Below, one piece after another: positions 4,648 through 28,725 of a DNA stretch of 28,983 bases. Below the pieces are notes generated by a model. It was not told where the DNA came from, made no database searches, and worked only from the letters and a program-made list of their open reading frames with translations. This DNA is from a virus. The stretch is from positions 1 through 28,983 of the IMG/VR virus record IMGVR_UViG_3300042886_000356. The stretch is one strand, 5' to 3'. The translations under genes and the position numbers were made by a program. How positions within the stretch are numbered: position 1 is the first letter of the stretch; each line of letters starts with the position of its first letter.

Positions 4648-5120
4648 TTAAACAGATAATAGCGTCCCAAAAGAACTACTGGAGAACTCTACAGGAATAT
4701 TCTGACTATTTTGAGAAAACACTTAAAGATAATGCCCCCATTAATACTGGTAAATTAGCGGAATCAATTAATAGTGAGGTAGGTTTTGATGCGAATGGTA
4801 ATGTTGATTTAGATATTACTATGAACGAATATGGTCTATTTATCAATGCTGGGGTAAATGGTGTAACAATAAGTAGGGGGAGTATATATAGTTATAGAGA
4901 TAAAAAACCCCCAATATCAGCATTACAAGGATGGGCTACGAGTAAGGGTATTAATGTATATGCCTTACAGAATAGTATATATAATAAAGGTATTCAGAAA
5001 CAACCATTTATTGACGAAAGTGTTAGTGATGTCAATGTAGTCAGAATGGCTGATGATTTAGCAAATAACCTATGGAATGATTATTCTGAAATAGAAAACA
5101 ATATAAATATAAATAGATAA
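4641..5120 (+). CDS. HK97 gp10-like head-tail/neck protein
   Basis: The 159-aa protein shows features of the HK97 gp10 family: an N-terminal helix ending in LKDNAPINTGKLAESI, a central strand section (EYGLFINAGVNG), and ISALQGWATSKGINVYALQ followed by NKGIQKQPFIDES. The order of APxxTGxL, an xxGxxG strand pair, and KGIxxxPF is typical. Members take part in head-tail joining. It follows a tail-terminator candidate, as in many siphophages. It overlaps the preceding gene by 7 nt and is followed after four bases by a very large tail gene. Confidence 0.55.
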   Translation: MLIKQIIASQKNYWRTLQEYSDYFEKTLKDNAPINTGKLAESINSEVGFDANGNVDLDITMNEYGLFINAGVNGVTISRGSIYSYRDKKPPISALQGWATSKGINVYALQNSIYNKGIQKQPFIDESVSDVNVVRMADDLANNLWNDYSEIENNININR

Positions 5121-5124
5121 AATT

Positions 5125-8100
5125 ATGCCAACGAAATATTTAACAATAAAATTTTACGAACAACCTGAAGAAGGGGATAAAATAAGATTTGCGATAGCTG
5201 ATGATACTGCAACTTTTGGTGTATATGAATTTAGTAATGGTGAATACGATGCTGAATTAACTTACAAACAACAATCAGGAAAAACTTGCAATAGTATAAT
5301 GGCATTTAATAGTGATTGGTCTATGAGGTCCTCATTCAACTCCCCAGGTGTTGTTGGAGTTGAAGCCCCAGGTGTTATAAAAACAGGTGATACTTTATCA
5401 GGATTTATATATGATGCTGATTTTGATGGTGCTCAAGCTGTATTGGTTGGTCAATTTGACGAATATAATGGTTATAGTTCAAGGAATATGGTTGCTATTG
5501 ATAGAAATGGTAATTTATTAGCGAATTTATCAACTTCATTTGGTTCAGCAACTATTAACTGCGTAAGATACGATTCTAGTTATGGTATTTTATTTGGAAC
5601 TTCAACTACTTTATTTAATGGAACAACAGTAAGAGGGTTTTCAAGATTATCAAGTGGTTTTAGTTTAGATACAACTTTCAACAATAATGTAATTGCAACT
5701 GGATTAGTAAATGCTACAACTCAAGTAACCGCATTGGAAGTATGTCCTACAACTGATAAAATATATGTTGGTTATACTAATTCAACAGGTGGTGGTAGAG
5801 TAGTTAGATTTAACACTGATGGAACTATTGATGCAACATTTACAGCTGTTGTATGTTCTAATGCTACTACAGGAAGTTTAGTGTTTATCAGGTCAATTGC
5901 GATAGACCCTAATAATGGTTTTATATTGATTGGGGGTAATTTTAATGATGTTAATTCAACTGCACAAAGATTAGTAGTTAAAGTTAATAATACTGGAACT
6001 CCCCAAGATTTTATTACATTATCAGGTGGAACAGATTGTAGAGCGATTACTTTAGATGAAGATGGAGATATTGCATATATTGGGGTAAATGCAACAAGAG
6101 TTACAAAAGATATTATACCAGCACAAACAATATATGATATTAGTGGTAAAGGTATTATAAAAGTGGAAACAGCTAGTGGTGATACAAGTAATAACTTTAA
6201 TGAAATAATTGGAAGTGGTATAAGATGTTATTCAGGTAATACAACATATCTTGTTAATGATATTCAAGTTGTTGAACAATATGGTATTGATAATAGAAAG
6301 ATGTTAGCAGTAGGTGGTAAATTCAAGACTTTTGGTGATTTTAGAGCAGAGAACTTCGCTTGTTTTGATTTGGAATTTGGTGTTCCAGCTATTTGGACTG
6401 ATGTTAATGATGCTGTTCCCCAAGTTGATACATTGAAATTTACTACTAACTTTAATAGTGAAATAAATAGACTATTAGTAAGTAAGGTATCACAAGGTGG
6501 GGGATTAACAACCTTACCTAATATGTTTTTAGCATTGGGTAGTTATGATATTCTAAAAGGTATTCAAGTTGATACTCAATTTACACCATCAGGTTCAGCA
6601 CCATATGGAACTTTTAATATAATGAAAAATATTGAGATTGGTCAATATAAAACCAATACAGATAGTGTTACATTTACTTTTAGTCAAGCGAACGAATGCG
6701 AGGGTGATATGTCAATATTATTAGGTAATATATATAATCCTATTACTAATACATATGATGCAATAGGTGAAACATTTGAGTTCAGATACGACCCAGACCC
6801 AGGTCAAGTTCAGATTGGAGCATTTGTTGGTTCAACAATGGTTAATTTTAAGAACGCATTAATAGATAGATTTACCCCCTATTTTGATGATTTATTATTA
6901 TATACAAGGGGTTATGCGTTGGGTGCTGGAGTAAGAGATTTTACCTGGAGTATAGAGATAATTGATGCTACTAATCTAAAGATAACAACTAATAATCCTA
7001 TATGGAGAAATGGTTTTTTAACAACTAATACTTTTCCTGACCCATTTATTGTTGCTAATACTGGGGAAGCAATAACTTATAATAGTTCTTTTGCTGATAC
7101 TTATTGGAACACTTACCATAAATTAAGAGCTGAATATATAAATAGCACTGGTGGTGAGACTATAGTTTATGAAGGAGTATTGAACCAAGATAATGATGAT
7201 TTTTATTATGTATTTGGAAGTGATGTAATAATGGGTGGTGGTAATCTTGATGGTTCTGAAATCAGTTTATCATTTGAGTATGATAATCCTGCACCCCCAG
7301 CTTCACCGAGAGAAGTATCATTTTTTAATATTATTCAACTATTGGGGGAAATAGAATTGTTTTCCGAGGAACAATTAGTTGATGGTTCAGAAACATTTTT
7401 AGTAAGAAGTCCAGGATTTGTAAAAACAACAAGTGGAACAACATATTCAACTTTTGATGTATATACATATTCAGGTAATATTTATGATAATACACCAGTT
7501 AATTATAGTGTTACAAAACAAAAAATAACCCCTACACAAACTACTTTATATATTGATGTATCTAATTTAACAAAAGAAAATTTAGAAGCAGATATTACTA
7601 ATTATGTTAGTGATACACCAGTAATGGAATTAGGTGAAAATGAAAGTAGATGGGTTAAAGTAATCATCAATAATTTTAGTGGCACTACTCAAACTTCACA
7701 AGATATTAAGTATTACTATATTATGGATGGTTTTGTATCCCCACTTGAACTAAATGAAAAAAATACTCTTCCAAGGATATTAACCCCAAAAACTAATATT
7801 ATGGCAAGGGGAACTGCCCCACGAATATACTTTAGAAATAAGGGTGTTGTAAGTATTGGTGGTAATAGTGCTGGTTATCCTTTTGTTATTGACCCTAATG
7901 CGTTTAATTCAGAAAATAATCAATATTTTAACTCTATTTATGTTCCTACTTATTTGGGGGAAAATAATAGTATTACTTTTACTATTTTATATGATGATGA
8001 TACAACTGAAGTAATTACATATACAGTATATGATGAATGTAAATACGATATTTATGAATTAATATTCAAGAACAAGTGGGGTGTATTAGAATCACTACCA

Positions 8101-25687: not shown

Positions 25688-25712
25688 AAACCCCTCCGTT
25701 TAAGAGGGGTTT
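25688..25712 (+). terminator. Terminator at the end of the late gene block
   Basis: AAACCCCTC (25688-25696) pairs with GAGGGGTTT (25704-25712) in a perfect 9-bp stem with a 7-nt loop. The T tail is short. It starts five bases after the endolysin stop and resembles the stem after the capsid gene. Confidence 0.8.
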
Positions 25713-25891: not shown

Positions 25892-26053
25892 TTATAAATT
25901 TTCATTTAATGCGTGTAATATATTTATTTTTTCCCTGATTGTTTTCGCATTACTAAAATCTTTTGTTATCTGATTGATAAGTTTATCATTTTCAATACTA
26001 CCAAGAACTACTATTTTATTAGTTAAACTTTCAATTAATTTTTTATTTTTCAT
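25892..26053 (-). CDS. 53-aa hypothetical protein (minus strand)
   Basis: On the minus strand, an ATG (complement of 26051-26053) opens an ORF of 53 residues, MKNKKLIESLTNKIVVLGSI onward, that ends with TAA. The protein is helical and basic at the start, with regular Leu/Ile spacing. It has an A-rich leader and a good Bacteroidota-type promoter just upstream, which strongly supports a real gene. No family is recognised. It lies downstream of the winged-helix gene on the same strand and might be a small regulator. Confidence 0.6.
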   Translation of the reverse strand: MKNKKLIESLTNKIVVLGSIENDKLINQITKDFSNAKTIREKINILHALNENL

Positions 26054-26118: not shown

Positions 26119-26865
26119 TTAATTTACATAATTACTTTTATTATTCAGAACCCTCCCCCATATACTATCAGTTAGAATATCATCATCATCACTTTTTATA
26201 GTATTTTTTTTATCAATTTTACTTTCAACATTGGATATTAATTCAATTATTGACTTATCACTTTTCTTCCAGGTTTTTATTTCATTTTCAAGTTCATATT
26301 GGCATAATTTATATTTACCAATATACCTAGTTAATTTCATATAATAATCATCAACACTTGCCCAAGGATTATCTTTCAACATTTCTTCAATTTCAATAAC
26401 TAATTCATTGTTGATATTATCTTTAGATTTAATTATTGGTAGGTTTTCTTCTTCCTGTTGAACGATAATATCTTTTTTATGTATTGATACCACTTTTATA
26501 TTATCTTCCTTTATTTGGTCTATTTTAACTTCTTTATTCGTTGAAGATACATTTTTATCTAATTTGTTACCTAATGTAATATACCTTCTATTCCCCCATT
26601 TAGAATCAGGATATTTTTGCTTAGAAGTTGAAGTAATAATAAAATCATTATCTTTAAGATATTTTATAATTCTACTAATCATTCTAACACCCCCCAGTTT
26701 TTCGTTGAAGTGTTTTACTATATGTTCATCTGTATAGAAGAACTCTTGTTTATTATCGCAGTGTGAGATAATAAATGATAATAATGTAATATCATTATTT
26801 GATAATTCGTTGAAGTTATATAAATAATTATATACTTTAGTAAATGTAGTTGAAGTAGTTTCCAT
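26119..26865 (-). CDS. Winged-helix DNA-binding protein, candidate replication initiator
   Basis: The 248-aa protein has an N-terminal winged-helix region (residues about 15-98): ELSNNDITLLSFIISHCDNK, FYTDEHIVKHFNEKLGG, RMISRIIKYLKDNDFIITST and GNRRYITLG. This is the outline of HTH_36-type or phage replisome-organiser domains. A charged linker (100-150) leads to a C-terminal helical domain with NPWASVDDYYMKLTRYIGKY and IKTWKKS. It is on the opposite strand to the late genes. A hairpin, AT-rich DNA and five tandem iterons lie upstream of its start, the classic layout of an initiator beside its origin. A transcription regulator is the alternative. No helicase or primase motif is seen. Confidence 0.6.
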   Translation of the reverse strand: METTSTTFTKVYNYLYNFNELSNNDITLLSFIISHCDNKQEFFYTDEHIVKHFNEKLGGVRMISRIIKYLKDNDFIITSTSKQKYPDSKWGNRRYITLGNKLDKNVSSTNKEVKIDQIKEDNIKVVSIHKKDIIVQQEEENLPIIKSKDNINNELVIEIEEMLKDNPWASVDDYYMKLTRYIGKYKLCQYELENEIKTWKKSDKSIIELISNVESKIDKKNTIKSDDDDILTDSIWGRVLNNKSNYVN

Positions 26866-26909
26866 TTTTTTTATTCCTTTATTTTTATGTTATGTCCTTT
26901 TTTATTTTA

Positions 26910-26952
26910 CTCGGGAAAGGAAGTTGGGGGTAATTAATCCCCAACACCCGAG
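26910..26952 (-). promoter_or_regulatory. Strong two-part hairpin upstream of the winged-helix gene
   Basis: CTCGGG (26910-26915) pairs with CCCGAG (26947-26952), and GTTGGGG (26923-26929) pairs with CCCCAAC (26939-26945) around a 9-nt loop. A 7-nt bulge faces a single A. It is by far the most GC-rich spot in the region. No T run follows on either strand, so it is not a normal terminator. It would be in the 5' leader of the winged-helix mRNA, about 45 bases from the start codon, or could act as DNA structure at the origin. Confidence 0.55.
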
Positions 26953-27141
26953 GAAGATTGATAACAACCTTCTATTATAAATATATTAAACTTTATAAAA
27001 AGACCAAATAATTAACTATATTATTTTCTTATAGTAAAAACAATTTCAATAGATATTATTTATATAATCTTATTTATGTAAAATTACTATTATTATTTCA
27101 ATAAAACAATTTTTTATATATATAATATAATAATTATTATA

Positions 27142-27191
27142 ATCTTATCTTATTTCTTATCTTATTATCTTATCTTATTTCTTATCTTATT
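27142..27191. repeat. Two perfect 25-bp direct repeats (AT-rich, TCTTAT-based)
   Basis: Two adjacent identical units (27142-27166 and 27167-27191) are each built from the hexamer TCTTAT with one T-rich spacer. They contain only C, T and A on this strand. Such tracts are typical of DNA-unwinding elements beside iterons. Confidence 0.75.
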
Positions 27192-27198
27192 ATGAATG

Positions 27199-27313
27199 GT
27201 CATATATGTCTATATAATGTAGTCATATATGTCTATATAATGTAGTCATATCTGTCTATATAATATGGTCATATCTGTCTATATAGTATAGTCATATTTG
27301 TCTATATATGATT
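27199..27313. repeat. Five tandem 23-bp iterons
   Basis: Units begin at 27199, 27222, 27245, 27268 and 27291, all exactly 23 bp apart. The shared core is GTCATATnTGTCTATATA. The first two units are identical, and the later ones drift mainly after the core. The spacing of about two helix turns puts the sites on one face of DNA, as for Rep-protein iterons. There are no spacers, so this is not a CRISPR array. Confidence 0.8.
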
Positions 27314-27332
27314 TAACAATTTGGTAGATATC

Positions 27333-27345
27333 GGTGATTATCACC
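27333..27345. promoter_or_regulatory. 13-bp palindrome GGTGATTATCACC, possible operator
   Basis: Two 6-bp arms, GGTGAT and ATCACC, flank a single T, a size and symmetry typical of a dimeric repressor site. It lies between the iterons and the promoter candidate of the gene at 27470. Confidence 0.45.
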
Positions 27346-27408
27346 TGTAAGTAAGAAAAATATAAATAAAACCTATAGGACCATCTTCAACGATAGAAAA
27401 AAAGTATT

Positions 27409-27437
27409 TTGTATTTTAGTAAAATTGATTATATTTA
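27409..27437 (+). promoter_or_regulatory. Candidate promoter for the gene at 27470
   Basis: TTG (27409-27411) is followed by 18 nt and then TATATTTA (27430-27437), one base off the Bacteroidota TAnnTTTG element. The following leader ATATAAACAAACTAAAAA resembles that before the gene at 28222. Confidence 0.4.
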
Positions 27438-27469
27438 TATTATATAAACAAACTAAAAAACTAAATAAA

Positions 27470-27673
27470 ATGGCAAATTCAACAGGTAAGGCAATCGCAA
27501 CTCAATCACAATTAAAATTCGTATTGGATTATTCAATCCATATGGATAAAAAATTATCACTAAAAGATATTATTGCAATCAGTAATGTTCTTATTGATTA
27601 TGTAGAAAACGGATACTCAAAAGAACTATCAGATAGAATAGGTAAGATAGATGAATATCTTCAAGATAAATAA
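27470..27673 (+). CDS. 67-aa hypothetical early protein
   Basis: The protein (MANSTGKAIATQSQLKFVLD onward) is small and helical, with HMDKKLSLKDIIAISNVLID and a C-terminal amphipathic helix ELSDRIGKIDEYLQDK. No family is recognised. I choose ATG 27470, since the leader before it is A-rich like other genes here. A longer frame from TTG 27425 would translate the promoter-like region. The gene is the first plus-strand gene after the putative origin and ends at a terminator shared with a convergent gene. Confidence 0.65.
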   Translation: MANSTGKAIATQSQLKFVLDYSIHMDKKLSLKDIIAISNVLIDYVENGYSKELSDRIGKIDEYLQDK

Positions 27674-27722
27674 CGACCACTTCAAGTGGAACTTAGGACC
27701 TTATCGTAACGGGTAAGAAATT

Positions 27723-27752
27723 AAAAGGGGAACTCGCTACTCCCCTTTTTTT
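27723..27752. terminator. Bidirectional terminator between convergent genes
   Basis: AAAAGGGGA (27723-27731) pairs perfectly with TCCCCTTTT (27741-27749) around a 9-nt loop, with a T run on the plus strand and an A run upstream that gives a U run for minus-strand transcripts. It lies between the stops of the genes at 27470 (plus) and 27755 (minus). Confidence 0.85.
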
Positions 27753-27754
27753 AT

Positions 27755-28126
27755 TTATACTAATTTAATCCTATCAAAACATAATATATGATTAACCAGG
27801 TCCTCCCCAATACAAGTAAGTGTTGTATTAATAAATTGTTTTGGATGTAAATGGGGGTTGTCAAAGATAAGATTTAACTCAATAGATAGAGATAAGTTCT
27901 TCAACGAAATATCACGAATAATAAAGGGTTTTACGGAACCGAAATAATCTTCCAGTATCTTATGAGTTAAAATGATTAATTGTTTCTTATATGTAGTAAA
28001 ACTATCATCAAAGTCCTCATCCTTTTCAACTTTACTCTTTATAATAACATAAAACAATTTACTTGTCTTTAAGTTGTCGCAACCTATTGTATAATCTACC
28101 GAATGATAGTTAATTCTTTTTACCAT
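27755..28126 (-). CDS. Hypothetical protein, 123 aa (minus strand)
   Basis: I do not recognise this protein. It starts MVKRINYHSVDYTIGCDNLK, has a strand-helix-strand feel with KLFYVIIKSKVEKDEDFDD and a middle helix (YKKQLIILTHKILEDYFGSV), and then a strand stretch (LSLSIELNLIFDNP). No catalytic motif or membrane span is visible. It converges on the 67-aa gene across a bidirectional terminator and diverges from the nuclease gene at 28222 through a 95-bp AT-rich gap. Position in the early region suggests a regulatory or host-takeover role, but nothing shows it directly. Confidence 0.7.
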   Translation of the reverse strand: MVKRINYHSVDYTIGCDNLKTSKLFYVIIKSKVEKDEDFDDSFTTYKKQLIILTHKILEDYFGSVKPFIIRDISLKNLSLSIELNLIFDNPHLHPKQFINTTLTCIGEDLVNHILCFDRIKLV

Positions 28127-28221: not shown

Positions 28222-28725
28222 ATGGGAAATTATCAAACACAAGATGAAGATGGTCGGCAACTGTTTCATCTATTATGTTCGCAACAAAAGTGGTGTAGGC
28301 ATAAAAAGGATTCAACTAATAAGTATTCAAGTTGGGACTTATCTTATTTAAGTGGTAAAACACGAATGATAGGTGAAATAAAATACAGGAGAGAATATGA
28401 AGGTGATGAATTTTATGATTGGATACTGGAGCTTGAGAAACTAAATAATCTAAAGAAAATCCACGAAAAGATGTTAAAACAGGGGATTGAGACTAGGATA
28501 ACATATATTAATCACTTCAACGCTAATTATACTTTAATATGGGATATTACTGACCTAAATTTAGATAATTATCAAATTAAAAAAGTTAAACTACAGAAAA
28601 ACAATTTTGATACAACTGAAATATGGAAAGATGTAATTTATTTACCAAGTTATCAGGCTATATTCAGAGGAGAAACAGATGAAACTAAAAGTATATTTAT
28701 AAAACAACTACACAATGGCAACTAA
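28222..28725 (+). CDS. Predicted PD-(D/E)XK nuclease-like protein
   Basis: The 167-aa protein has a candidate PD-(D/E)XK core: D39 in SSWDLSYLSG, then a turn and E52-I-K54 in MIGEIKYRREY. Between them lies a strand-turn-strand spacing typical of this fold. A helix EFYDWILELEKLNNLKKIHE follows, and then the strands RITYINHF and YTLIWDI. Such nucleases in phage early regions act in recombination, DNA processing or degrading host DNA. The call rests on a single D...ExK arrangement and is tentative. It starts at ATG 28222 with an A-rich leader and overlaps the next small ORF by 11 nt. Confidence 0.5.
   Translation: MGNYQTQDEDGRQLFHLLCSQQKWCRHKKDSTNKYSSWDLSYLSGKTRMIGEIKYRREYEGDEFYDWILELEKLNNLKKIHEKMLKQGIETRITYINHFNANYTLIWDITDLNLDNYQIKKVKLQKNNFDTTEIWKDVIYLPSYQAIFRGETDETKSIFIKQLHNGN

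Follow-up and report, generated by a model that had tools for sequence, protein, structure and literature searches.

The window analysed here, i.e. the whole stretch of 28,983 bp, is an entire IMG/VR record without end repeats. Its late genes form one rightward block, comprising a truncated sigma-like gene, an N6/N4 methylase, TerS, TerL, tail genes, an XkdF-type protease, a probable capsid and portal, tail/fibre genes and an M15 endolysin. Since the sigma-like gene is cut by the left edge of the window, the contig is incomplete, with a stretch missing between its right end and its left end. The TerL was closest to that of Nonlabens phage P12024L (45%, the best match among cultured phages) and the endolysin to those of Flavobacterium phages (67%); judged from these similarities the host is therefore most likely a member of the Bacteroidota, and the phage is a Bacteroidota-type siphophage. 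A terminator-like hairpin (25688..25712, minus strand) lies between the rightward late genes and a leftward unit, which holds the gene for a 248-aa protein (26119..26865, minus strand) and behind it, possibly in the same operon, a 53-aa ORF of no known family (25892..26053, minus strand). Upstream of the 248-aa protein gene is a 604-bp gap with 80% A+T (26866-27469), and the first ORF to the right, encoding 67 aa without clear family (27470..27673, plus strand), begins 162 bp past the repeats described below. The GC skew of the window tracks gene direction and was therefore left out as evidence for an origin, and sigma-70-like promoter matches were not above the shuffle level.

Repeats and easily melted DNA in the intergenic gap

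The sequence-only reading had described five tandem units of exactly 23 bp in this gap, and that description was fully borne out. The array (27199..27308, plus strand) has five 18-bp cores with which the units start (27199-27216, 27222-27239, 27245-27262, 27268-27285 and 27291-27308), all agreeing with GTCATATnTGTCTATATA at zero mismatches. When the window was shuffled with preservation of dinucleotides, core matches averaged only 0.38 with a maximum of 3, even with three mismatches allowed, and at a period of 23 the 604-bp intergenic region scored 81/87 for self-matches, compared with at most 53 in 500 shuffles. The units are direct repeats and not clearly palindromic. Variation is concentrated in the spacer, with 4 of its 5 columns being variable as compared with 1 of 18 in the core, thus leaving 17 core columns invariant. 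A constant core with a variable spacer points to separate protein sites and not merely to fresh duplication, but we regard this as no more than supportive because the hypergeometric figure of 0.0027, which is uncorrected for block choice, rises to about 0.06 after multiplication by the 23 possible blocks. Arrays of this kind (period 16-32, at least 3.5 copies) occurred five times among 187 loci (1.94 Mb), two of the five being that of the window and that of the related contig L012 discussed below. The sequence-only reading had also proposed a search for the same iterons elsewhere, which recovered no second array: they were absent from plasmid (72,556 records) and phage (50,697 records) collections, an exact search of IMG/VR gave three single matches, none of them tandem and all with surroundings unlike the array, and a two-unit pattern was not found in 397 genomes of the family of the Flavobacterium MAG behind locus L217.

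Ahead of the array, the two perfect 25-bp repeats that had been noted earlier were likewise found as described, with TCTTATCTTATTTCTTATCTTATTA at 27143-27167 and 27168-27192 (27143..27192, plus strand; 96% identical in the register picked by an automated repeat search). They contain four TCTTATCTTATT 12-mers, at 27143, 27155, 27168 and 27180, and are candidates for the 13-mer-like repeats of an unwinding element. When stability was computed from nearest-neighbour energies for segments of 80, 150, 300 and 600 bp, the least stable one of each length in the window fell within 26973-27572 and started to the left of the array. The part at 26973..27198 (89% A+T), which overlaps these least stable segments, adjoins the iterons and has the 12-mers inside, is hence our candidate DNA unwinding element. 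No DnaA box, exact or with one mismatch, was found in the gap, which was counted against an origin, although DnaA is dispensable in some replicons. An inverted repeat, GGTGATtATCACC (27333..27345), lies past the iterons, ahead of the rightward ORF, and is a possible separate operator. Iteron origins have 2-7 iterons, commonly of 17-22 bp, together with Reps having winged-helix domains and with 13-mers in the unwinding element, of which RK2 has four (PMC4980987). Five tandem direct 18-bp cores at a period of 23 bp, adjacent to an easily melted AT-rich element, are what we found in the window.

The predicted winged-helix protein

A divergent winged-helix gene close to the repeats had also been postulated, and the leftward gene 26119-26865 agreed with this, weakly by sequence and better by structure prediction. 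The first iteron is 334 bp away from its start codon and the array as a whole spans 334-443 bp upstream; the product should consist of an N-terminal winged helix (residues 1-105), a linker and a C-terminal helical part. The match to HTH_36 (PF13730) spans the model but is weak (E 0.17; 12.2 bits against a Pfam cut-off of 25), and neither RepA_N (PF06970) nor Rep_3 (PF01051) gave any match at E<=1; Phage_rep_O gave no profile match either, and the iterons lie outside the gene. Sequence searches of phages (50,697 records), plasmids (72,556 records) and IMG/VR revealed no relatives, the weak match to the L012 protein being the only sequence relationship detectable. A profile built from the window and L012 proteins found two HTH_36-type proteins in 299 genomes of the family of the L217 Flavobacterium MAG. 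Sequence matches in the PDB were weak and were judged to be due to chance.

The 105-residue domain, modelled from a two-row alignment, was predicted to be a winged helix with the order H-H-E-H-H-E-E (pLDDT 68.5, pTM 0.62); an AlphaFold model of the whole protein was of low quality (pLDDT 36.5) and was excluded from the fold search. With VIA-align, the four best matches included 4pql_B (Z 8.7) and 4pt7_B (Z 8.4), aligned over 89 residues with an rmsd of 3.1, their PDB titles being ‘N-terminal domain of DNA binding protein’ and ‘Structure of initiator’, respectively; 4PT7 is a staphylococcal plasmid RepA (PMC7145576). The range of Z 8.0-8.7 held 4pql, 5jbr (an uncharacterised protein), 4pt7 and others, and the Rep-DNA complex 5kbj followed at Z 7.8. 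The viral fold matches included replisome organizers and a replication protein O. Since the Z values of RepA are tied with those of MarR-type and other winged helices, MarR-like proteins falling within one Z unit, the fold does not by itself separate an initiator from a regulator. The predicted fold is consistent with an initiator, not proof of one, and with all the evidence considered the product of 26119-26865 is likely to be an initiator.

A similar layout in a distantly related phage

When related contigs were scanned over their whole length for tandem arrays lying in gaps, L196 stood out, the same contig as L012 (IMGVR_UViG_3300046011_009677), from a distant relative of the window phage (TerL 55%). 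The stretch from lysozyme to TerL is unbroken in this contig. In its early region a leftward gene encodes an HTH_36-like protein of 235 aa that begins with METT, as the protein of the window does, and scores 17.1 bits on HTH_36 (below the Pfam cut-off of 25). The L012 array, in the gap that comes next, has five repeats of about 18 bp at 5014, 5036, 5060, 5084 and 5106, spaced by 22, 24, 24 and 22 bp, and the least stable DNA of that contig lies alongside. The repeat sequences of the two phages are unrelated. Two features of the comparison were counted against an origin, namely that the winged-helix proteins have hardly any similarity (BLASTP E 0.12) and that the least stable DNA is on opposite sides of the two arrays. 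Among the L012 proteins tested between lysozyme and terminase, none was recognisable as a helicase, primase or polymerase. Sequence searches with the L012 HTH_36-like protein gave nothing in phages or plasmids and only itself in IMG/VR. None of 44 related records, several of them fragments, had HTH_36 at E<=0.001; near-full-length matches were limited to the window and L012 among the records searched, with partial ones elsewhere (E<=0.05). When further relatives of the L012 module were sought, L005 alone was found, which ends before the array.

The two phages also have in common a leftward small ORF followed by a nuclease-like gene. This parallel is by position only, because pairwise BLAST gave no significant similarity between either the small ORFs or the nuclease-like genes. 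In the window, a 167-aa ORF (28222-28725, plus strand) has WDLSYLSGKTRMIGEIKYR and is perhaps a PD-(D/E)XK nuclease, and the equivalent position in L012 (6700-7317) has an Mrr-like nuclease (below the Pfam cut-off). The first rightward gene past the L012 array (5403-6056, plus strand) encodes a sigma-70-family factor with regions 2 and 4, in addition to the sigma-like gene that precedes TerS.

A structured RNA element in the window

The window also has a structured noncoding element at 27674-27755 (plus strand), with further copies in L085 (6250-6370), L087 (6500-6615) and loci L232-L349. Its parts follow in the order of a hairpin, an invariant UUAGGACC(G), a second hairpin and a last stem with GAA(U/C)UCGCUACUC inside it, in many copies accompanied by a U run. 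Matches to the pattern TTAGGACCN{28,58}TCGCTACTC occurred in at least 119 IMG/VR contigs with none expected from window shuffles, and the element often follows the stop codons of varied phage genes at a distance of 7-35 nt. Among 52 non-redundant copies, 46-52 had standard pairs at every position of the last stem and most of these positions had several pair types, i.e. were covarying. No Rfam family matched the element in the window or in eight loci, and two copies used as blastn queries had no match in cultured phages; it is perhaps an undescribed 3' UTR or terminator RNA.

Assessment of the candidate origin and alternative explanations

We consider it probable that the gap 26866-27469 is an iteron-type replication origin of the phage. 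This is the best supported reading because of the iterons, the least stable DNA with its 12-mers, the leftward position of the gene with a predicted winged-helix fold, and the same layout in L012. The leftward gene would encode the initiator of this origin, whose N-terminal winged helix would bind the five iterons spaced at 23 bp, whereupon the iteron-bound array would melt the AT-rich element with the TCTTAT 12-mers on the gene-proximal side. The C-terminal helical part of the initiator could then recruit the host replisome (helicase, primase), with replication proceeding in theta mode; binding, melting, recruitment and theta mode are steps that we infer. Other replication genes were not found elsewhere in the window. 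Two further points were counted against an origin, which are that the missing stretch of the contig might hold further replication genes and that AT-rich stretches separating divergent genes are a common feature of promoters too.

The position between divergent genes would also suit an operator or enhancer array, in which a winged-helix regulator acting on the five sites sets both leftward and rightward expression. Many MarR-type regulators were found among the fold matches at tied Z values, and in L012 the best repeat copy is near-palindromic (GGTAGAATTAAATCTACC) with a sigma-factor gene then following. However, the units in the window are direct and not clearly palindromic, five regular copies by the least stable DNA in two phages exceed the needs of a promoter, and neither the window nor those L012 early proteins that were tested offered another candidate initiator, so that we find regulation in place of replication to be unlikely. 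An initiator controlling its own expression would be compatible with either reading. We give very little credence to the array being a centromere-like partition site, as the parS or tubC repeats of phages living as plasmids, since neither the window proteins nor those early proteins of L012 that were tested matched ParA, ParB, ParM or TubZ. A point in favour of such a site was that proteins of the TubR type have winged helices. In some mycobacteriophages, moreover, clusters of direct repeats close to rep act as parS, with five repeats in Miko and Rachaly (PMC7157519). A recent tandem duplication without function in AT-rich DNA could be suspected from the 80% A+T around the array, but the core is constant with variable spacers, the L012 array has the same size, copy number and place with an unrelated sequence, and the rarity of such arrays, with two of the five belonging to these very phages, makes this explanation the most improbable of all.

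The sequence-only reading had furthermore likened the locus to plasmid theta origins; of this, the iterons and the AT-rich element held up and a winged helix is predicted for the product of the adjacent gene, whereas a match to a plasmid-type Rep family and a DnaA box near the array were lacking. Its suggestion of a phage-plasmid gained no support, with no plasmid-type Rep, ParA/ParB or integrase match in the (incomplete) window, and copy control had nothing beyond analogy to speak for it; both remain conjecture. It would be a bold proposal, which we view as rather doubtful, that such Bacteroidota phages have a minimal single-protein replicon in which a small, fast-diverging winged-helix initiator with co-evolving iterons replaces the primase/helicase/recombination module present in related siphophages such as P12024L, drawing all its enzymes from the host and possibly enabling the phage to persist as a copy-controlled plasmid.

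Related phages differ in this region. In the early region of L203, one gene resembling a primase and one resembling a helicase were noted by eye, and L087 (6725-7696, minus strand) and L165 (782-1762, plus strand) have a 323-326-aa protein in place of the winged-helix gene, with no Pfam match and no clear family. By eye, these proteins have a winged-helix-like N-terminus and short motifs recalling motifs A and C of family A polymerases (IDAQASQPK, PIHDCLIVK), and in L087 the sequence AAAAGTGAGGGrCAATAGAATGATA occurs twice just upstream of the gene. If the candidate origin is real, these findings suggest that replication modules are exchanged at one site in otherwise similar siphophages. The window would then be the source of an origin-initiator cassette that is small and portable, comes from a Bacteroidota phage not yet in culture and could be used as a replicon for Flavobacterium-type vectors, and together with L012 it would provide a natural case of initiator-iteron co-evolution.

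Comparison with known replication systems

The theta plasmids RK2, P1, F and pPS10 are like the window in having direct repeats and an AT-rich element, and their initiators have winged-helix domains, a fold predicted for the candidate initiator of the window, whereas no DnaA box was found in the gap of the window and its candidate initiator gave no Rep_3 match. The RepA_N/HTH_36 initiators (pSK41, pTZ2162, pPR9 and PLE RepA) have an N-terminal winged helix of about 105-120 aa, a linker and a C-terminal domain, as the window protein appears to have, and RepA structures were among its best fold matches, but it lacks a PF06970 match; in pSK41 the Rep boxes are furthermore inside rep, whereas the iterons of the window lie outside the gene. 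In pPR9, as a review on staphylococcal plasmids describes, a working replicon uses an N-terminal domain of the PF13730 (HTH_36) type that resembles a phage replication protein (PMC5703833). The lambda ori has a few iterons beside an AT-rich tract and a phage-encoded initiator, O (PMC7466680), an arrangement shared by the window with its candidate initiator, although the lambda iterons are inside O and the window has neither a Phage_rep_O match nor a recognised helicase loader (P). The mycobacteriophages Miko, Rachaly and Jeeves have repA opposite to the virion genes with the origin in or beside repA (PMC7157519), comparable to the candidate initiator gene and candidate origin of the window; they are extrachromosomal prophages with parABS, whereas no par genes were found in the window. 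Nonlabens phage P12024L (Inhavirus) has a broadly similar late gene order, but in its early region, from endolysin to terminase, there are genes for a VirE-type primase, a helicase, ERF and YqaJ. In a limited literature search we found no earlier description of an iteron origin in Bacteroidota phages; the arrangement itself is of a known type.
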